From: an uncultured Clostridia bacterium
GTDB lineage: Bacteria > Bacillota > Clostridia > TANB77 > CAG-508
Assembly (NCBI GenBank): GCA_944388895.1
Contig: CALXKR010000003.1
Span: forward strand, 1 to 33,561
Reading direction: 5' to 3'
Length of the DNA: 33,561 nucleotides
Positions 23,961-33,011 of this stretch are shown here, one piece after another. Made by a program: the position numbers and the translations under genes. The notes under the pieces are model-generated. The model was given only the letters and a program-made list of their open reading frames with translations. It did no database searches and was not told the origin of the DNA. Numbering within the stretch: the stretch's first letter is position 1; every line of letters begins with the position of its first letter.

Positions 23961-24018
23961 TATAATACTCCTTAAAGCAATTTTAAAATTAAAACTTAAT
24001 TTTAAACCAAAACGTGGT

Positions 24019-24065
24019 TGGAGCCACCAGCGAGAATCGAACTCGCGACCTACAGGTTACGAACC
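24019..24065 (-). pseudogene. 3' half of a tRNA-Thr(CGU), candidate attachment site
   Basis: On the minus strand this reads GG-TTCGTAA-CCTGT (anticodon loop and 3' stem), AGGTC, a perfect T-arm GCGAG/CTCGC and acceptor TGGTGGC-TCCA. Everything upstream of GG is missing: no 5' anticodon stem, D-arm or 5' acceptor strand. Truncation at the anticodon loop next to an integrase gene is the mark of tRNA-targeted tyrosine-recombinase integration, where the displaced 3' half stays at one end of the element. This makes 24,057-24,063 the likely crossover and puts the element to the right. Confidence 0.85.
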
Positions 24066-24175: not shown

Positions 24176-25489
24176 TTATGCAATTTTTCTAATAATTCTG
24201 ATTTTTCCCTTTATTTTCCCTTTATAAATAATTGGTGTTTTCTTTTCTTCTTTCAGGATATTATTCTTATAAAATTCTTCTATTTTTTTATTTTCTTCTT
24301 TTTCAAATTCAATTAATAAATGGGTATATCTATCTGTCATTCTTGAAGTTGAATGTCCTAATAATTTTTGCAAATATTTTACAGAAATTCCAGCTTCTAA
24401 ACATCTTGTAGCAAAGGTATGTCTTAATTGATGTACTCCTATATGTCTAAATCCAATCTGTTTTAAATATCTACTTAATTTTGTCCATAAAAAATCTGCT
24501 TTAATTCTATTGCCTTTGCTTGTCAAAAAAAGAGGTTTTCCCTTAAGTTCTGCTATAGACTTTATGTTATTAACTTTCATATATTCTTCTCTATATTTTT
24601 TTAATAACTCATATGCTCCAAATAGCATTGGTATTTTTCTTACACTACTCTCTGTTTTCAAATCACTTTCTTCAACTGTATTTTTTTGTCTTTTTAATTC
24701 TTCAGTGAATAGTGCAGTACAAACTAAACCATTTCTAACCATTACTATTCTATTTTTAAAATCTATATCATCCCAGTCAGAACCTGCTGCTTCACTTGCT
24801 CTTTCTCCTGTTTTTAGTAAAAACAAATAAACTGTAAATTCATATTTATGTGCAAGTAAATTTTCAAATTCTCTTTGTTCTTCTCTTGACATTATTTCTG
24901 GTTCTTTAACTCTTAATTTAGGTGGATCTACTTTTTGCACACAATTACTTTTTAATAAATTATTTTTTATTGCCGCTTCAAAAGCCATATTTAGAACACA
25001 ATATGTATCTTTTATTGTTTTAGGTGCTAACTGTTTTTTAGTAGTTTTACATTGTCCTGTTTTCATTTTAGTCAATATTTGTTGAATATGAATAGGTTGT
25101 ATCTTTTGTAATTCATATTTTCCTATTTCAGGAACAATATATTTTGTGATTGCAATAATATAGGAACTTAAAGTGTTATTATTGACTACTCCTCTTTTAT
25201 ATGTATTTATCCACTTTTTTAGCCATTCTTCTACAGTTATGTTATTACTTAAAATATAAGAATTATTTTCAGATTCATTTTTTATTTGAGCCATTTTTTG
25301 AATAACTACTCTTTTATCCTTGTCGCTGACAGATACTTGTTTTTTTATTCCATCAATTTCTATTGTAACTCTTCCTTCATATGAGTTACCTTTTTTTCTA
25401 ATTGACCCTTCGCCTTTATTTCTTCTTTTCACATCACCTAATTTCTTTTTACTCTTTTTTTCTTTTATATCATTTTTTTCTTTACTCAC
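24176..25489 (-). CDS. Tyrosine integrase, Tn916-like
   Basis: A 437-aa site-specific recombinase that would insert and excise the element. It has a basic N-terminal arm-binding domain (GEGSIRKKGNSYEGRVTIE), a SAM-like core-binding domain (TVEEWLKKWI...) and a catalytic domain with all key residues: R in LKTGERASEAAG, K near RKIPM, H-R in GVHQLRHTFATR, H in LLGHSTSRM and the nucleophile Y in DRYTHLL. I chose the GTG at 25487-25489, six bases after GAGGTG; an upstream ATG at 25552 lacks a site. Its stop is 110 bases from the truncated tRNA, as expected for an integrase beside its attachment site. Confidence 0.93.
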   Translation of the reverse strand: MSKEKNDIKEKKSKKKLGDVKRRNKGEGSIRKKGNSYEGRVTIEIDGIKKQVSVSDKDKRVVIQKMAQIKNESENNSYILSNNITVEEWLKKWINTYKRGVVNNNTLSSYIIAITKYIVPEIGKYELQKIQPIHIQQILTKMKTGQCKTTKKQLAPKTIKDTYCVLNMAFEAAIKNNLLKSNCVQKVDPPKLRVKEPEIMSREEQREFENLLAHKYEFTVYLFLLKTGERASEAAGSDWDDIDFKNRIVMVRNGLVCTALFTEELKRQKNTVEESDLKTESSVRKIPMLFGAYELLKKYREEYMKVNNIKSIAELKGKPLFLTSKGNRIKADFLWTKLSRYLKQIGFRHIGVHQLRHTFATRCLEAGISVKYLQKLLGHSTSRMTDRYTHLLIEFEKEENKKIEEFYKNNILKEEKKTPIIYKGKIKGKIRIIRKIA

Positions 25490-25589
25490 TAAAATCACCT
25501 CGTAAATATGTTTTAGTAGAGTTAGAATATATTTGTACTTATTATTATACATCTATTCTTCTACTAAAAAAAGCTCAAAAAAAATTTTT

Positions 25590-25994
25590 TTAATATTTAA
25601 TAAAATTCCCTATATTCTTGGTCATCCAGTCATTTATTCCTAATTTATTTATTAAAATTCTTCTCTTAAATTTCACACATGGGAAATCAGGCAATTTTAC
25701 GAGTTCGGCAACTAACTGTTTACTTACTCCTAAATATTCTGCACATTCTTCTATAGTCATTCCTATTTTTTCAATCCCTGTATTTATTGTTATTTTATTT
25801 TTTCCTTCTTTTATTAATATTTCTTTCATTAGTTTCATTAACATATTCTCATCTTTATATACTTCAAACATAGTTCTTATTTCTTCAATTACATCTTCAA
25901 CTGTTCTCTCTTTATTAGCACTATGAAAAATGCTATGAAATGCCATTACTATATAGCCTATACAGCATTCTCTGTTTATATAAATTCTTTCCAT
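25590..25994 (-). CDS. Excisionase-like DNA-binding protein
   Basis: A 134-aa protein upstream of the integrase in the same direction. The C-terminal half (about 80-128) is a winged helix of the excisionase type: MTIEECAEYLGVSKQLVAEL, then LPDFPCVKFKRRILINKLG and a closing INDWMTKN helix, the layout of Tn916-like Xis proteins. The N-terminal half (1-75) is extra relative to Xis and unrecognised; it has two cysteines and charged helices and may regulate excision or bind a partner. GGAGG lies nine bases before the ATG. Confidence 0.75.
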   Translation of the reverse strand: MERIYINRECCIGYIVMAFHSIFHSANKERTVEDVIEEIRTMFEVYKDENMLMKLMKEILIKEGKNKITINTGIEKIGMTIEECAEYLGVSKQLVAELVKLPDFPCVKFKRRILINKLGINDWMTKNIGNFIKY

Positions 25995-26036: not shown

Positions 26037-26201
26037 TTATTTAGTATTTTTATATTTTTTATTTTTATAATCCCTTAAAAAATTTACCTGTTCTTGATCT
26101 TCCATCATTAGTTCCTTTTCTGATTTATTTTTGTTTCCACCAATTATCACACAAAACATACTTGTTCCAATTAATATTAGTATCAAAATTAATATAAACA
26201 T
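26037..26201 (-). CDS. 54-aa single-span membrane peptide
   Basis: A short gene. An N-terminal membrane helix (MFILILILILIGTSMFCVII, residues 1-20) is followed by a charged tail ending in EDQEQVNFLRDYKNKKYKN. A strong GGAGG sits five bases before the ATG, and the charged 'DEEQ-x-x-x-L' tail is of a kind I associate with small proteins in clostridial mobile elements (from memory, not checked). It lies between the excisionase-like gene and a structured intergenic region. The function is unknown. Confidence 0.6.
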   Translation of the reverse strand: MFILILILILIGTSMFCVIIGGNKNKSEKELMMEDQEQVNFLRDYKNKKYKNTK

Positions 26202-26219
26202 TATTACCTCCGACTTTTA

Positions 26220-26440
26220 GTGTTTTAATTCATTAAATGGTAATCAGCTACATTACTCCTCAGGAATCTAACCTATCTGAACTCAGACTTGTTTTCATTG
26301 CTTGGGACGGTTCTTTCTCGCTCGTGCTATGACTAAACAAGAGTATTATTATTCATCTTTATTAGTTATCGCCTTATCAGTTGCTAACTGATATTTAAGT
26401 TTTATAGTTCTGCATCTATAAATTAAACTAGCTCTTAATA
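26220..26440 (-). ncRNA. Candidate structured RNA or leader
   Basis: The 362-base stretch 26,202-26,563 has no gene but is dense in hairpins on the minus strand: 26,398-26,429 (7-bp stem plus outer pairs), 26,375-26,393 (perfect 8 bp, 3-base loop), 26,288-26,341 (7 plus 4 bp with a 2-base bulge, closing a purine-rich loop with GAGCGAG and GAACCGTCCC) and a 4-bp tetraloop at about 26,276-26,287. Its base composition is less AT-rich than nearby spacers. It ends at the ribosome binding site of the 54-aa gene. I cannot assign it to an RNA family. Confidence 0.45.
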
Positions 26441-26498
26441 AAGTGTTTATTTAACGAATGTTATTCAATTTTCAATGTGCTTTTTATTCTCAAAATAG

Positions 26499-26536
26499 AA
26501 ATAAGTGAAAGAGTTTTCTTACCCCTTCACTTATTT
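26499..26536 (-). terminator. Terminator after the sigma-like gene
   Basis: Perfect 11-bp arms (AAATAAGTGAA and complement) around a 16-base loop, followed on the minus strand by a T-rich stretch. It separates the sigma-like gene from the structured region. Confidence 0.6.
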
Positions 26537-26563
26537 GCTCACAAAATTTGATTTTGTCCCCCC

Positions 26564-27019
26564 CTATTTTTCAAAAAATTTTTTTATTTTTTTCAAACCT
26601 AGTTGAAGACTCTTTTCTATTTGCTTTTTTTGAACCATTTCTATTTTAGCTAAATCTCTTATTGTAATTTCATTTACTATGTGTAAATCTATTCTTCTAT
26701 ATTGAGCTTCTGTAAGATTTTGCATTGCTTGATTTACTTTTTTTCTCTCTATATTTTTTATAACCGTTTCTTCTACACTTTCCACTGGATCAAAAGCTCT
26801 TTTATATATTTCTTCATCAGTTAATGAAGAATGTTCTAAATATCTACTTGTTTCATTTTTTATCTTTGTATAAGCTTTTTTTGATTTCATATATGTATCA
26901 AATATTTCCTTATCAATTTCAATTCTACAGTCTTGGTTGGCACTATCTACAAATGATATGTAATATTTATCTTCATCCTCTATATATTCTAAAGTATAAC
27001 TATCTACTTCGTATTGCAC
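26564..27019 (-). CDS. Sigma-70 region 4-like regulator of a mobile element
   Basis: A 151-aa protein of the type encoded by orf7 of Tn916-like elements. The N-terminal 60 residues (VDSYTLEYIEDEDKYYISFV) are family-specific; the C-terminal part is a sigma region 4 helix-turn-helix with LTEAQYRRIDLHIVNEITIR, DLAKIEMVQKKQIEKSLQLG and a KKIKKFF end. In Tn916 this module controls conjugation genes; none are in the window. The start is GTG, seven bases after AGGAGG, and a 12-bp palindrome abuts that site. Confidence 0.8.
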   Translation of the reverse strand: MQYEVDSYTLEYIEDEDKYYISFVDSANQDCRIEIDKEIFDTYMKSKKAYTKIKNETSRYLEHSSLTDEEIYKRAFDPVESVEETVIKNIERKKVNQAMQNLTEAQYRRIDLHIVNEITIRDLAKIEMVQKKQIEKSLQLGLKKIKKFFEK

Positions 27020-27376: not shown

Positions 27377-27496
27377 TTAAGTTGATTAGATTATATTTTC
27401 TTTTAGGTCTTTTGTGATAGTTGGGTTAAAAAGGGCTATAAAAAGGTAAAAAAAGGCTACTACTTTTTGCTTTTGGCATATATTTCCATTTTAATA

Positions 27497-27525
27497 TTGA
27501 TTTTACATAATATTTGTGATATAAT
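27497..27525 (+). promoter_or_regulatory. Promoter of the Spo0A-like gene
   Basis: TTGATT and TATAAT are 17 bases apart with an extended -10 (TG plus one base), 34 bases before the start codon. Confidence 0.8.
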
Positions 27526-27559
27526 ATCCTCATATTTAAAGCATTTGTGGAGGTTTGCA

Positions 27560-28276
27560 ATGTTAAAAGTTCTAGTAGCTGATGAAAATCATGCAGCAAA
27601 CTTAGATTGCTGTCAATATCTAGCAAATGATAAAAACCTCGATGTACTAAGTACAAATAGTGGAATTAATACTATAAATGCATATAATAATTTTCATCCT
27701 AATGTATTAGTAATAAATTCTGACTTTAAGGATAGGAGTTATACTGAAATACTCAATGAACTTTCTTCTACATCACTTGAAAGACAAAAAACCAATGTAA
27801 TCCTTACTGTAGAAGATAATGGGAAAAGAATTGAATTAGATTTCATGGCTAAAGTTTATAAGTTGTTTTATTCTGTTGACTATGAAAAAATTAGAGAAGG
27901 AATAGAACAATATAACTTAGATAATGTGATTTTTTATGAGCCAAACGAGAAAACTTTAAGTGCATTGTTTTATAAATTGAATTTGTATAACGAACAAACT
28001 GGAGCTAGTTATCTAAAATATGCCATTATACAATCTTATAATAACCAAACATCAACAAAGACCTTAAATGACATTTTTAGTTTAGTTTCCAAAGCATTTA
28101 ATGTTTCCTATAAATCTGTTAGACCTGCAATGAGAAATGCTCTAAAATCTGTAAATAATTATAGAAAAAAATGTGGTAATACTGGGATTTTTAAACTGTT
28201 TGAAAATGAAGACTCAATTACTCCAAAAAATTTTATAAAAATTATAACTAGATATTATATAAAACAAAAAAAATAA
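27560..28276 (+). CDS. Spo0A-like regulator with a degenerate receiver domain
   Basis: A 238-aa protein with two domains. Residues 1-75 look like a CheY-type receiver (MLKVLVADEN with the acidic pair D8-E9), but the phospho-acceptor position after HPNVLVI is Asn (N53), so normal phosphorylation is unlikely. Residues 145-235 match the Spo0A DNA-binding domain: TGASYLKYAIIQSY, then SLVSKAFNVSYKSVRPAMRN, and a LFENEDSITPKNFIKIITRY end. The middle (76-140) is unrecognised. I chose the ATG after GGAGG. It converges on the radical-SAM gene. It may bind DNA constitutively or respond to a ligand or partner. True Spo0A is expected elsewhere in the genome. Confidence 0.8.
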   Translation: MLKVLVADENHAANLDCCQYLANDKNLDVLSTNSGINTINAYNNFHPNVLVINSDFKDRSYTEILNELSSTSLERQKTNVILTVEDNGKRIELDFMAKVYKLFYSVDYEKIREGIEQYNLDNVIFYEPNEKTLSALFYKLNLYNEQTGASYLKYAIIQSYNNQTSTKTLNDIFSLVSKAFNVSYKSVRPAMRNALKSVNNYRKKCGNTGIFKLFENEDSITPKNFIKIITRYYIKQKK

Positions 28277-28310
28277 AAGAAATAAGTAATTATTGAAACT
28301 TATTTCTTTT
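28275..28310. terminator. Bidirectional terminator between the Spo0A-like and radical-SAM genes
   Basis: Perfect 13-bp arms (AAAAGAAATAAGT and complement) with a 10-base loop and a T-rich tail lie between converging stops 40 bases apart. Confidence 0.85.
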
Positions 28311-28315
28311 TTATT

Positions 28316-29497
28316 TTATTGGTATTTATACTCTTTATATGCTTCTATAATATCTTTTGCTGTTCCAGCATAAGGTTCTCTTACACAAGCATTTAATTTG
28401 TTATCTGTAATATTTATAACTTCCATTAATTCATTATCAGGTATTTCTCCTATTGTACTGAAACTAGGAAATTGGTCTTGTAATTTTTCTTTTGTCTTTC
28501 TTATAAGTTCTAATCCAGACATATTTGAAAAATTATATTTAGAAAATACTAATTCTGGTTTTAATTCTACTATTTTTTTATATGTATCAATTCCATCACA
28601 AGCTATTCCCACTATATTAATATACTCTAAACTAGAGATAGAATTTACTATTGCTTCTCTTATTGTATCATCATTATGAGCAACGATAGTCCTTATTTTT
28701 CTTGTTTCTGTATCTAATTTATTAATTAAAAATTCCAAATTTTCTTGTTGTAAAGCGTTTGCGAAATACTTATCTTTTCCATTTTGAGTTTGTATAATAT
28801 CTGCATTTGGAAGAACTACCATACTTTTTTCAAATTCACTTTGTTTTTTATATTGAATTATTTTAATATTCTCAAATGTTTTTATTTCTCTTACTTTATT
28901 TTCTAATTCATCTTCAGATATTTCAAATGTTTCCTTGTTTACTAAAGCTTTCTCTCTAATAGGCATAAATTTAAGAAATTTCCACTTTTCAATCTTATAC
29001 TTATTTAAAAATTCTCCTAATTCCTCTAATTGATTTATATTCTTTTTACTAACAACTGTATTAATACCAACTTTTATCTTTTTATTCTTAGTTTTTTCTA
29101 ATAGATTTTTGATTATTTCAAAGTGGTTATCTTCTTTACCTAATGACTTATTTATTTCATTATCAATTGAATCTATTGATAGATTTATTTCATCTAAAAT
29201 ATTTAAAATATCTTCAACATACTCATTATCATTTTTTGATAGAAAAATTCCATTTGTTACTAATTTATTGTGTACTCCATTTAACTTAGAAATTCTCATA
29301 AGCTCATTTACTCTAGGATATAATACTGCTTCTCCACCAGTCCAAGTAATATGGTTTATTCCATTCTGTATTAAATTATTTAATACTTTTTCATTTTCTT
29401 CAAATGATAAATCTTCAATATTATTAAAACCAAAGCAATATTTACAATTTTGATTACATCTTGTAGTTATTTTCCAACATACTTTTTGTTTACTCAT
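28316..29497 (-). CDS. Viperin-like radical SAM protein fused to a pseudo-receiver
   Basis: A 393-aa protein. Residues 1-260 are radical SAM: the cluster motif CNQNCKYC (C14, C18, C21), [11 protein letters not shown] (54-56 GGE), [33 protein letters not shown] and [10 protein letters not shown]. By eye this order, including the 'WK-F' strand, resembles viperin (whose product ddhCTP blocks polymerases) and related proteins, though 'GGEP' is GGEA here. Residues 268-390 are a CheY-like receiver with D276-D277 but Lys (K320) for the phospho-acceptor in [19 protein letters not shown] chose the ATG at 29497: AAAGG lies nine bases upstream and the promoter leaves no leader for the ATG at 29527. Substrate unknown. 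Confidence 0.82.
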
Positions 29498-29531
29498 GTA
29501 TATCAACCTTTCTCTACTATTTGACATAATA

Positions 29532-29560
29532 ATTATACATTAGTATTTGATGTATGTACA
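29532..29560 (-). promoter_or_regulatory. Promoter of the radical-SAM gene
   Basis: TGTACA and TATAAT with a 17-base spacer on the minus strand, about 35 bases before the chosen ATG. Confidence 0.7.
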
Positions 29561-29741
29561 GTTGGAATTTTCTAATGGTCATTTCATTTTATCAAACCCA
29601 CTAATATAAATATATTTAACTTCTTTATATTTGAGTTTATAGTTAGTGATGAAAAATTATTTTATACCTGCCTCTTTTTTATCAATTTGTCGAGATGAAT
29701 TGTATCTCATAATTAAACATTAGGTTTGTTTTTATATATTT

Positions 29742-30293
29742 TTATTCTTCACTAATTCTTTCATATTTTATAGCATTAATTTGAGCTGGATATGTTGTCA
29801 TTATAACTCCATCATAAGTTACCTTTATTCTTTCTCCGATCTTATATTTTACATTAGTATCAATTTTTAATTTCTCTACCATTATTAAATCTGCTGATTT
29901 TTTTATTTCTTCATTTTCATCTGGTTCAACAAAAAATAAGTTTTCTTCTACTTGTGTTATTGTGCCACCAAATGAATATTCACTGTTTTTCATTTCTTTT
30001 TCAAATCTTTTCTCATATTCTTTCATTTCTTCTTCAAAGTCATTGTAATCCATAAACCAGCTACCTATTTTTATGTCATCATATCCCGCTAATGTATGGA
30101 AATCAATTACTTTATATCCTAATCCAAAATATTCTATTGTTCCTCCATCCATATATATTCCTGCAAGATTACGAATACAAAATATTGGATTCTTTCCATT
30201 TTTTACTTTGTTGTAATCAACCACAAAAAATATTAACCCTAAAATAATTACAATTCCTAGTACACAACCAATAATCTTTAATCCTTTTTTCAT
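29742..30293 (-). CDS. Membrane-anchored DUF3221-like protein
   Basis: A 183-aa protein anchored by an N-terminal helix (KIIGCVLGIVIILGLIFFVV, about 5-24). The first half after it (PIFCIRNLAGIYMDGGTIEY, FGLGYKVIDFHTLAGYD) is a pattern seen in many clostridial surface proteins. The C-terminal part (GTITQVEENLFFVEP...YKIGERIKVTYDGVIMTTYP, then AQINAIKYE) looks like the DUF3221/YobA OB-like fold. Function unknown; it should face outside the cell. I chose the ATG at 30293 with GAGG upstream; a TTG at 30305 is possible. An extended -10 (TG-A-TATAAT at 30,357-30,362) lies upstream. Confidence 0.7.
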   Translation of the reverse strand: MKKGLKIIGCVLGIVIILGLIFFVVDYNKVKNGKNPIFCIRNLAGIYMDGGTIEYFGLGYKVIDFHTLAGYDDIKIGSWFMDYNDFEEEMKEYEKRFEKEMKNSEYSFGGTITQVEENLFFVEPDENEEIKKSADLIMVEKLKIDTNVKYKIGERIKVTYDGVIMTTYPAQINAIKYERISEE

Positions 30294-30455
30294 AAATCCC
30301 CTCAATTTACCTTTCTTTTAAAATTTAATAATAGCGATAACTTACTATTTTATAGCATTATATCATAAATAAAAAAATCACTCTATACTTTTTCGTATAA
30401 AGTAATTTAAAATTATATCTAATAAACAAAGAAATTGGTTCAGTTAATCTTATAA

Positions 30456-31334
30456 CTATATTTCTAAATATTTTTTAATAAAAATCTTATCTATCTTTGT
30501 TAGATATTTTTCTATATAAATCAAATTAATGTTAACTTCAGGTAATTTTATTGGTAATTTTATTTCATAAAGTTCTCTTTTATTTAATGCTTCTTCTACT
30601 GCCTCTTTCATAACATATCCTATTCCTTGCCCTTGTCTTACTTCTTCAATTCTCATTTCAGTATTATCACATTGTATATCTGCTTTTATTTCTACATTAT
30701 TTTCTCTTAATACTTCAAATAATCTTTTAGTTGAAGTAGATTCCTTGTAATTTAATATGTACTTATATTGTTCCATTTCCTTAAGGTCCTTTATTTCTAT
30801 CAATTCATTAGAAATAAAAATATTATTAATCTTTTTTAAAGTTTTTATAATAAGTTCGTTATTTATATTATCTGGAACAGTATCTATTATTACAAAATCA
30901 ATTATATGCCTTTGTAACAATTGTAATAAACCATTATAGTCTGCTACACTTACTATATCTATTTTTAAATCAGGATAATCATTTCTTACTTTCGTTATAC
31001 ATTTTGATAAATAAAATATTGATATATGAGAAGGACAACCAATTGTAATTTTTGCCTTAGAAATATCATAGTTTTGAATTATTGCATTTTCTGCAAATTC
31101 AAGATCTTTAATTTTGTTATGCATAGAATCATATAGTTCTTTTCCTGCTTCAGTTAGTACTAGACCATCTCTTTCTCTATAAAACAATATTATATCTAAT
31201 TTTTTTTCTAAATTTGTTATATGAGAACTAATCGTCGACTCTGTTAAATATAATTTGTCACTTGCTTCTTTATAATTTTTTGATTCTGCTACTACACAGA
31301 AAATCTTATATAAATTCAAATTAGTATCGCTCAT
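30456..31334 (-). CDS. LysR-type transcriptional regulator
   Basis: A 292-aa LysR regulator. The N-terminal winged helix-turn-helix is clear (FCVVAESKNYKEASDKLYLT, ESTISSHITNLEKKLDIILF, about 10-50), followed by a linker helix and an effector-binding domain (ITIGCPSHISIFYLSKCI; VRQGQGIGYVMKEAVEEA). I chose the ATG at 31334, eight bases after AGGTGG; an overlapping GTG at 31346 is possible. The start lies one base after the stop of the CYTH-like gene, so the two should be translationally coupled. The effector and targets are unknown; it may regulate its own operon. Confidence 0.88.
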   Translation of the reverse strand: MSDTNLNLYKIFCVVAESKNYKEASDKLYLTESTISSHITNLEKKLDIILFYRERDGLVLTEAGKELYDSMHNKIKDLEFAENAIIQNYDISKAKITIGCPSHISIFYLSKCITKVRNDYPDLKIDIVSVADYNGLLQLLQRHIIDFVIIDTVPDNINNELIIKTLKKINNIFISNELIEIKDLKEMEQYKYILNYKESTSTKRLFEVLRENNVEIKADIQCDNTEMRIEEVRQGQGIGYVMKEAVEEALNKRELYEIKLPIKLPEVNINLIYIEKYLTKIDKIFIKKYLEI

Positions 31335-31335
31335 T

Positions 31336-31923
31336 CTATGCACCACCTAATAAAATATTTTTTAATACAATTTCTGCTTTTTTTACAAAATAATCATTAG
31401 TATCTATTGGAAGTTCTAATTGTTTTACTTTATATTTTATTTTTTCTATGGTATCTAATTCTTTATTATCTTCTACAGTTTCAATTTCAATTAATTTTTC
31501 GCCATTTTCTATATCTTTAATTGTAATTTTAAAATCATCTCTCTTATAAGATTTATCATATTCTTTTATATTCATTAATTCTTTATAGCCTATTGCCTCA
31601 ATAAATGCTTTGCCTGCCTCTGCATCTAAAATTTCACAATTGACTTTGCTTTGTTTTAATATATTACCTTTATCATCTATTTGCTTATTTTTGAAAGTTA
31701 ATTTTACTACTTTTCGTTCAGGTATAAATTCTGTAATATTTCTTAATAGTATAGCCTTACTTAATATGTCTCTGTAACTCATATCTTTTAAATCTAATTC
31801 CTTCGGTATAAAATATGTATCATCTAAAATAAATTTTTCTATTATTTTGAAGTTTTTATCTTCTAATATATTGCCAATTTCTTTTATGCTACATTTTAAT
31901 CTTACTGTTATTTCATTACTCAC
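31336..31923 (-). CDS. CYTH-like domain protein
   Basis: A 195-aa protein resembling the CYTH superfamily (CyaB adenylate cyclase, thiamine triphosphatase), which bind triphosphates in a beta-barrel. Suggestive features: an N-terminal charged strand (NEITVRLKCSIKEIG), a 'DDTYF' strand, VVKLTFKNKQ, a SYKRDDFKI strand and EKLIEIETVE near the C-terminus. The usual E-x-E-x-K start is imperfect (E-x-x-x-R-x-K), so catalysis is uncertain. The start is GTG, nine bases after AGGAG. It heads a two-gene operon with the LysR gene and has a good promoter. Confidence 0.55.
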   Translation of the reverse strand: MSNEITVRLKCSIKEIGNILEDKNFKIIEKFILDDTYFIPKELDLKDMSYRDILSKAILLRNITEFIPERKVVKLTFKNKQIDDKGNILKQSKVNCEILDAEAGKAFIEAIGYKELMNIKEYDKSYKRDDFKITIKDIENGEKLIEIETVEDNKELDTIEKIKYKVKQLELPIDTNDYFVKKAEIVLKNILLGGA

Positions 31924-32353: not shown

Positions 32354-32611
32354 ATGGAATTAGCAAAAATAACTACAAAAGGTCAGGTAACTATTCCAAA
32401 ATCAATAAGAGAATTATTAGATTTAAAAGAAGGAAGTAAAATTCTTTTTATTCAGAAAGGAAAAGATATAGTTATTCAAAATGCTGCAATGCTTGCTTTA
32501 GAAAAGATTCAAAAATCTTTTGATGGCGAAGCAGAAAGACTTGGTTTAGAAACAGAAGAAGATGTTGTAAAAATGATAAAAGAATTTAGAAAAAATAGAA
32601 AGAAGGATTAG
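32354..32611 (+). CDS. AbrB/MazE-type antitoxin
   Basis: An 85-aa antitoxin. Residues 1-45 are a SpoVT/AbrB swapped-hairpin DNA-binding domain (AKITTKGQVTIPKSIRELLD, then LKEGSKILFIQKGKDIVI). The charged helical C-terminus would wrap and inhibit the toxin. Such antitoxins repress their own operon. The toxin starts two bases after this stop, the usual antitoxin-first coupling. AAAGGA lies about nine bases before the ATG. Confidence 0.9.
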   Translation: MELAKITTKGQVTIPKSIRELLDLKEGSKILFIQKGKDIVIQNAAMLALEKIQKSFDGEAERLGLETEEDVVKMIKEFRKNRKKD

Positions 32612-32612
32612 T

Positions 32613-33011
32613 ATGAGAGTAATGCTAGATACAAATATTCTTATTTCTGCATTCGTATTTAAGAGCAAAAAGATGAATGAACTAATCCATAAACTTTCCA
32701 AAGAGCACGAAATAATAATTTGCTCATATACAGTTCAGGAACTAAAAGAATTAATAGATACAAAATTTAAAGTAAGTCTAAAAGATTTAGATGAATTTTT
32801 AAAAGACTTCCCGTTTGATTTAGTTTATTCTCCAATGCATGTAGAGAATAAACTATTTGAAATTAGAGATAAAGATGATTATATAATTCTACATACAGCA
32901 ATAATAGAAGATGTTGATGTATTTATAACAGGTGATAAAGATTTTGATAATGTAGATGTAGACAAACCAGAAATTATGAATGCTACTGAATTTTTAGAAA
33001 AATTTTGTTAG
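32613..33011 (+). CDS. PIN-domain toxin (predicted ribonuclease)
   Basis: A 132-aa PIN ribonuclease of the COG1569 type. The four acidic positions are in place: D6 (MLDTNILISAF), E43 (TVQELKELI), D88 (RDKDDYIILHTA) and D108 (FITGDKDF), so it should be active. PIN toxins cleave RNA to slow growth; targets cannot be told from sequence. The AbrB-like partner is directly upstream, and the pair may stabilise the element. A strong terminator follows. Confidence 0.9.
   Translation: MRVMLDTNILISAFVFKSKKMNELIHKLSKEHEIIICSYTVQELKELIDTKFKVSLKDLDEFLKDFPFDLVYSPMHVENKLFEIRDKDDYIILHTAIIEDVDVFITGDKDFDNVDVDKPEIMNATEFLEKFC

Follow-up and report, generated by a model that had tools for sequence, protein, structure and literature searches.

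The question raised by this locus is what the hairpin-rich stretch 26202-26563, lying between a sigma-like gene and the gene for a 54-aa membrane peptide, encodes, and what it may do for the genes around it. The window, i.e. the whole stretch of DNA that was analysed, comprises 33,561 nucleotides of an uncultured Clostridia bacterium (contig CALXKR010000003.1). The preliminary description had proposed at least three strong stems, a lower AT content and a structured RNA of about 220 bases placed before the membrane peptide, and in these respects it was accurate: well over three hairpins are present, all on the minus strand, and the RNA proper occupies 26227-26480 (-) with a length of 254 nt, close to the size proposed. 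Its G+C content is 31.1% vs a local mean of 24.5% (254-nt windows; 1.1% of windows reach as much), and the ATG of the peptide gene lies approximately 26 nt beyond its 3′ end. Folding energy is only mildly unusual, with z values of -1.9 (minus strand) and -2.4 (plus strand) for the stretch and -1.1 for the RNA itself; hairpin density alone would therefore prove nothing, and the case for an RNA rests on comparison.

When the stretch was compared with related genomes by BLASTN, extended alignments (140-280 nt, 70-83% identical) were obtained from several members of its genus, family and order, and the RNA is conserved across the order and beyond. Fifteen homologues were oriented and trimmed before RNAalifold, which yielded 34 consensus pairs, 29 of them with compensatory double-sided changes, so that covariation bore out the structured RNA of the preliminary description. 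A covariance model, designated R1, was built from the same 15 homologues; it contains no Tn916 or Rfam sequence, its E-values are rough, and it matches the window RNA with 235.8 bits, the window sequence being part of the model. The set was then extended to 34 sequences. In the alignment of these 34 homologues 33 of the 34 pairs showed double changes, paired cells amounted to 97.5% vs 72.8% in shuffles and the covariation score to 0.70 vs 0.24, neither value being reached in any of 500 shuffles, and sliding the partners by 1-3 columns reduced pairing to 34-47%. The result for the unfitted 15 homologues is the safer one, since the 34-homologue alignment was fitted to R1 and is biased towards structure. 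Helix P2 was missed by the alignment and hence tested separately: in 22 homologues 8.7 bp were formed with the own partner vs 6.5 bp with swapped partners (0/602 permutations), and the window, which lies outside this set, yet forms P2 in full. The covariation evidence for a structured RNA is decisive.

The elements follow along the RNA in the order boxA-like box, P1, P2 enclosing P3 and P4, core box, P5 arm, P6, P7, P8 and again P1 (Table 1). A candidate kissing contact between GAGCTAG and the P8 loop (TAGCT) was noticed by eye only and no claim is made for it. The terminator-like hairpin listed in the table has a counterpart 5′ of the RNA in 17 of 29 homologues; it stands upstream of the putative antiterminator RNA, where the RNA cannot act on it.

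Table 1 Features of the RNA and of the neighbouring genes in the order of transcription; positions are those of the window.
Feature	Position	Strand	Basis or remark
Sigma-70-like gene (Tn916 orf7-like), GTG start	26564..27019	-	TIGR02937 E=4e-8, below cut-off; homologues match Sigma70_r4
Terminator-like hairpin, 16 bp, between sigma-like gene and RNA	26499..26536	-	separate structure 5′ of RNA
Structured RNA (pemK/canT-like), whole conserved unit	26227..26480	-	BLASTN homologues, covariation, R1 match
boxA-like box GCACATTGAAAATTGAATA, 5′ end	26462..26480	-	near-identical to 16S leader boxes of genus, family and order; rrn-derived matrix
P1 5′ strand ATTCGTTAAAT, partner 26228-26238	26449..26459	-	RNAalifold, covariation and pair counts
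P2 5′ strand CTTTATTA, partner 26357-26364	26436..26443	-	8/8 pairs in window; own-partner test, 22 homologues
P3 hairpin (TTTATAG / CTATAAA)	26401..26422	-	pair counts; variable arm, bigger in other homologues
P4 hairpin (TATCAGT / ACTGATA), then AAGGCGA	26375..26393	-	6 pairs, double-sided changes in all
Core box ATAATAATAC	26343..26352	-	ATA at 26350-26352 is the site of the inactivating canT(S3) change in Tn916
P5 long arm, apical CGAGCG..ACCGTC motif	26288..26341	-	covariation; motif common to Tn916 canT
P6 hairpin (TCTG / CAGA)	26276..26287	-	covariation, pair counts
P7 hairpin (AGG TTAGATT CCT)	26262..26274	-	covariation, pair counts; pemK signature GGUGAAAUUCC
P8 hairpin (GTAAT GTAGCTG ATTAC)	26240..26256	-	covariation, pair counts; outside RF02913
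P1 3′ strand ATTTAATGAAT	26228..26238	-	covariation, pair counts; outside RF02913
54-aa membrane peptide gene, first after RNA	26037..26201	-	conserved small family in related loci
Excisionase-like gene	25590..25994	-	HTH_17 and TIGR01764 excise, above cut-offs
Tyrosine integrase, last gene before att half-site	24176..25552	-	PF00589 E=8e-27
tRNA-Thr 3′ half, 46 nt	24018..24063	-	breaks off at GGTTACGAACC, anticodon stem-loop

The window RNA matched no Rfam family. The preliminary description had named raiA (RF03072), which is likewise a large structured clostridial RNA and resembles the present one in its leader-like position; cmscan returned no raiA match in the region even at E=10, and the suggestion is not supported. 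The family was also absent from the matches in all 133 relatives, but control genomes gave no match either, so absence there is not proven. A search for a phage or plasmid origin by DNA similarity returned nothing that matched the window RNA.

A relation was found to pemK RNA (RF02913), which Rfam labels only as 'Cis-reg'. The window itself has no match to RF02913, even at E=10; three of its homologues exceed the gathering cut-off of 34.8 bits (L016 with 57.4, L013 with 49.7 and L012 with 41.2 bits), and two score below it (L007 with 25.9 and L015 with 26.7 bits). The Rfam model covers 61 positions, from the core box to P7 only, and omits boxA, P1, P2, P4 and P8. The alignment and pair counts place the core box, the base of P5, P6 and P7 in the window in the order of pemK RNA, and both RNAs are associated with PemK-like genes and recombinases. 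Among 32 loci found by RF02913 alone 30 match R1, most of them including boxA, P1 and P8, which lie outside Rfam's 61 positions. Scores for RF02913 surpass the cut-off in 25 of the 133 relatives; a sample of 398 genomes from the whole phylum likewise yielded 25 with such scores. The core pattern occurs in 113 genome stretches (Streptococcus, Enterococcus, Anaerococcus, Peptoniphilus, Finegoldia, Lachnospiraceae and others) as well as in one viral contig.

The second relative is canT of Tn916, located between orf8 and xis and shown to be a cis-acting, orientation-specific, processive antiterminator that is most likely an RNA (Wirachman and Grossman, PMC11658703). Once the element has excised, transcripts from Porf7 run across its joined ends and encounter terminator T1, and canT is then required for the transfer genes to be expressed (PMC11658703). 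Energy-based structure predictions for canT were hard to interpret, and the authors are silent on pemK, Rfam, boxA and NusB (PMC11658703). In the Tn916 copy used for comparison (L226, from plasmid pCTN1046) the orf8-xis gap is recognized by RF02913 with 55 bits and by R1 with 94.5 bits (E=4e-20, L226:2161-2449); the best R1 score in a control, pLS20 1-45000, was 12.6 bits. The same copy contains a further Rfam match, to RF03532 (SQ2397, a cis-regulator of an HTH gene), at L226:874-1103 between tet(M) and orf7.

The sequence of canT can form P1 (10 bp), P2 (9 bp), P4, P5 and P8, and it has in common with the window the boxA, these helices, the CGAGCG..ACCGTC apex of P5 and the core ATAATnATAC. 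It differs by its experimentally shown function and by an extra arm (GTACGCC..GAGCGA) that is absent from the window; in many homologues (L071, L067, L036 and L226 among them) such an arm (GTACGCC..GACC, GAGCGA) occupies the P3 region. The canT(S3) substitution, ATA to TGC at nt 283 after orf8, abolishes the activity of the 452-bp canT and had little effect in a shorter 400-bp clone (PMC11658703). The three bases that it changes, L226:2323-2325, are those with which the pemK core ATAATGATAC begins, and the window also reads ATA at this position; the bases are not invariant, A being found at the first place in 23 of 34 homologues. Judged by sequence and predicted fold, both pemK RNA and canT are distant relatives of the RNA at 26227-26480 (-), and we regard this homology as firm. 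A literature search that lacked many journals found no paper linking pemK RNA, canT and boxA.

Nearly all extended RNAs start with a box resembling G[T/A/C][T/A]C[A/T/C]TTGA[A/C]AA[C/T]T[G/A]AATA, and a box that is almost the same occurs in 16S leaders within the genus (AAAGTACATTGAAAAGTAAACAATGAA), the family and the order. The rRNA leaders were taken from named genomes and five relatives, ten MAGs being without 16S. The unusual Peptoniphilus form agrees between the rrn spacer (GAACCATAACAACTTAAAA) and the pemK RNA of P. lacrimalis (GAACCATGACAACTTAATA), and so do the S. pseudoporcinus forms (spacer GTCCATTGAAAATTGAATA, pemK GTTCATTGACAATTGAATA). A matrix derived from ten rrn boxes of other species exceeded the 99% null at 85 of 110 non-redundant loci, the expectation being 1%. 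By this resemblance the identity of the box as boxA, the NusB/S10 site of rRNA leaders, is well supported; the difference is that the box is followed here by the RNA of a mobile element and not by rRNA. The Tn916 box reads TGTTCTTTGAAAACTGAATA. The active 452-bp canT clone starts at TTGAAAACT, inside boxA, with the first six bases of the box absent. This truncation speaks against a strict need for boxA, and because of it a role of NusB/S10 is put forward as a hypothesis only, the least certain of our proposals. Since the 452-bp clone cuts the box and the S3 change had little effect in the 400-bp clone, neither boxA nor the S3 bases can be taken to be needed in every context.

The genetic surroundings resemble those of canT as well. 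Gene order in the window is sigma-like gene, RNA, peptide, excisionase-like gene, integrase and tRNA-Thr att half; that of Tn916 is orf7 sigma, orf8, RNA, xis and int. The succession sigma-like gene, RNA, excisionase and integrase on one strand is common to both, and the window differs by the interposed 54-aa peptide gene and by having no orf8-like gene. The peptide matches no Pfam or NCBIfam family; its relatives, found directly 3′ of the RNA in several elements, share the C-terminal pattern GGNxNKS..EDxEQ..YLxxYKNK. Of the loci with enough flank, 46 of 53 from GTDB and 41 of 49 from relatives have a serine or tyrosine recombinase on the same strand 3′ of the RNA, and a sigma-like gene lies upstream of the RNA in 47 of 77 GTDB loci and 31 of 49 loci from relatives; gene labels in these counts are approximate (BLASTP to single-linkage clusters) and near-duplicates were only partly removed. 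Two loci, L023 (G005) and L024 (G004), carry a near-identical sigma-like gene and RNA, followed by a serine recombinase in one and a tyrosine integrase in the other: the regulatory RNA has been exchanged between recombinase types. In L024 an intact tRNA-Thr gene (7170) separates the RNA from the excisionase-like gene, and the integrase is followed by a tRNA-Thr 5′ half (after 9158).

In the window the integrase ends approximately 110 nt from the tRNA-Thr 3′ half, which was spotted by eye and checked against other genomes; these 46 nt of tRNA-Thr recur at other places in several genomes of the genus, and the half is likely to be the att site at the integrase end. No matching tRNA-Thr 5′ half was found in the window, a search for att sites as plain direct repeats gave no result, and neither the other end of the element nor a transfer operon or insulating terminator there was found. 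Upstream of the sigma-like gene (27467-31346) lie an opposite-strand Spo0A_C-like gene, a radical SAM gene whose tail weakly resembles a response regulator, and a LysR gene, the first two recurring at the same place in several related elements. Two plus-strand genes at 32354-33011, the second encoding a PIN domain, look like a toxin-antitoxin pair of VapBC type.

How such an RNA might act has to be decided among several readings. The one we hold to be probable is that it is a divergent member of the pemK/canT family and, as the leader of an integrative element, most likely makes RNA polymerase resistant to terminators. The preliminary description had spoken of a riboswitch-like leader, of which the leader part stands: in 26 of 29 homologues a search of the 150 nt beyond the 3′ end of the RNA detected no terminator, and genes on the same strand follow. 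The riboswitch-like part fits less well, the homology being to pemK RNA and to canT, a processive antiterminator and not a ligand-gated attenuator. A riboswitch or attenuator that controls the peptide, excisionase and integrase genes locally, in response to a ligand or to the state of the element, would suit the complex fold, the short distance to the start codon and the Cis-reg label of pemK RNA. It is nevertheless very unlikely: the lack of a 3′ terminator leaves it without an obvious expression platform in those 26 loci, the first gene downstream varies (peptide, PemK, excisionase or recombinase), and the Tn916 homologue works on distant and foreign terminators without any other Tn916 gene (PMC11658703). 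The missing 3′ terminators weigh also against an independent small RNA, whether a trans-acting regulator or a structural RNA, encoded between the two genes, as does the strict same-strand order with downstream recombinases, and canT is inactive in trans (PMC11658703); the hairpin that parts the RNA from the sigma-like gene and a strong promoter-like site upstream of the RNA in some homologues (L056 and L058) would fit such a transcript, which we consider very unlikely. In a scan for sigma-70 promoters shuffled sequences did as well as the real ones (24 found, 24.1 expected). That recombinase genes of an integrative element are nearby would also agree with a recombination or regulatory site acting at the level of DNA, but compensatory changes with G-U pairs preserve the fold of one strand, and canT is orientation-specific and dispensable for excision (PMC11658703), so that this reading is scarcely credible.

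The alternative that deserves most attention concerns not antitermination itself but the means by which it would be achieved. The RNA could contact RNA polymerase directly, in the manner of put or EAR, its likeness to boxA being incidental or serving some other use, e.g. RNA processing. A direct contact was suspected for canT (PMC11658703), and the active 452-bp clone with its incomplete box is in agreement with it; the junction of that clone, on the other hand, may rebuild part of the box. The box moreover follows the lineage's own rrn box, down to the unusual Peptoniphilus form, and the rrn-only matrix recognizes it in most loci, which argues against coincidence. We regard antitermination independent of NusB/S10 as a real possibility, to which we would give somewhat less than even weight.

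The terminator-resistance reading, carried over from Tn916, would then operate as follows. The RNA would be transcribed as the leader of the peptide, excisionase and integrase genes, and while nascent would fold into a P1-closed multibranch structure comprising P2-P8. Through the folded RNA the elongating polymerase would acquire resistance to terminators; transcription could then pass the integrase and, after excision and circularisation, continue over the joined ends into genes located at the opposite end. Recruitment of the host's NusB/S10 machinery may be the task of the rRNA-type boxA with which the RNA begins. By analogy with canT the window RNA probably acts in antitermination. The wider proposition, that pemK RNA and canT are one class of boxA-headed Bacillota antiterminators which borrow NusB/S10 and couple the expression of mobile-element genes to excision, seems to us evenly poised between true and false.

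Other nascent RNAs, put of phage HK022 and EAR of the B. subtilis eps operon, make RNA polymerase resistant to terminators (PMC11658703), and the window RNA is probably alike in this respect; it differs from them in sequence and structure, and it has no Rfam match. Processive antitermination in a Gram-positive conjugative element has also been described for conAn of pLS20 (PMC8955417), which differs in being a two-part system of the ConAn1 protein and the conAn2 RNA; kinship with conAn2 was considered and rejected, neither R1 nor RF02913 having a match in pLS20 1-45000.

For pemK RNA no mechanism was known in the literature searched, and the link to canT suggests a likely function for an RNA present in 25 of the 398 genomes sampled from the phylum. 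canT, in turn, had been described before without a family, a link to Rfam, a conserved structure or boxA, and its union with pemK RNA provides it with a structure supported by covariation. The joining of the two suggests that antitermination coupled to excision is a common switch of Gram-positive integrative elements.
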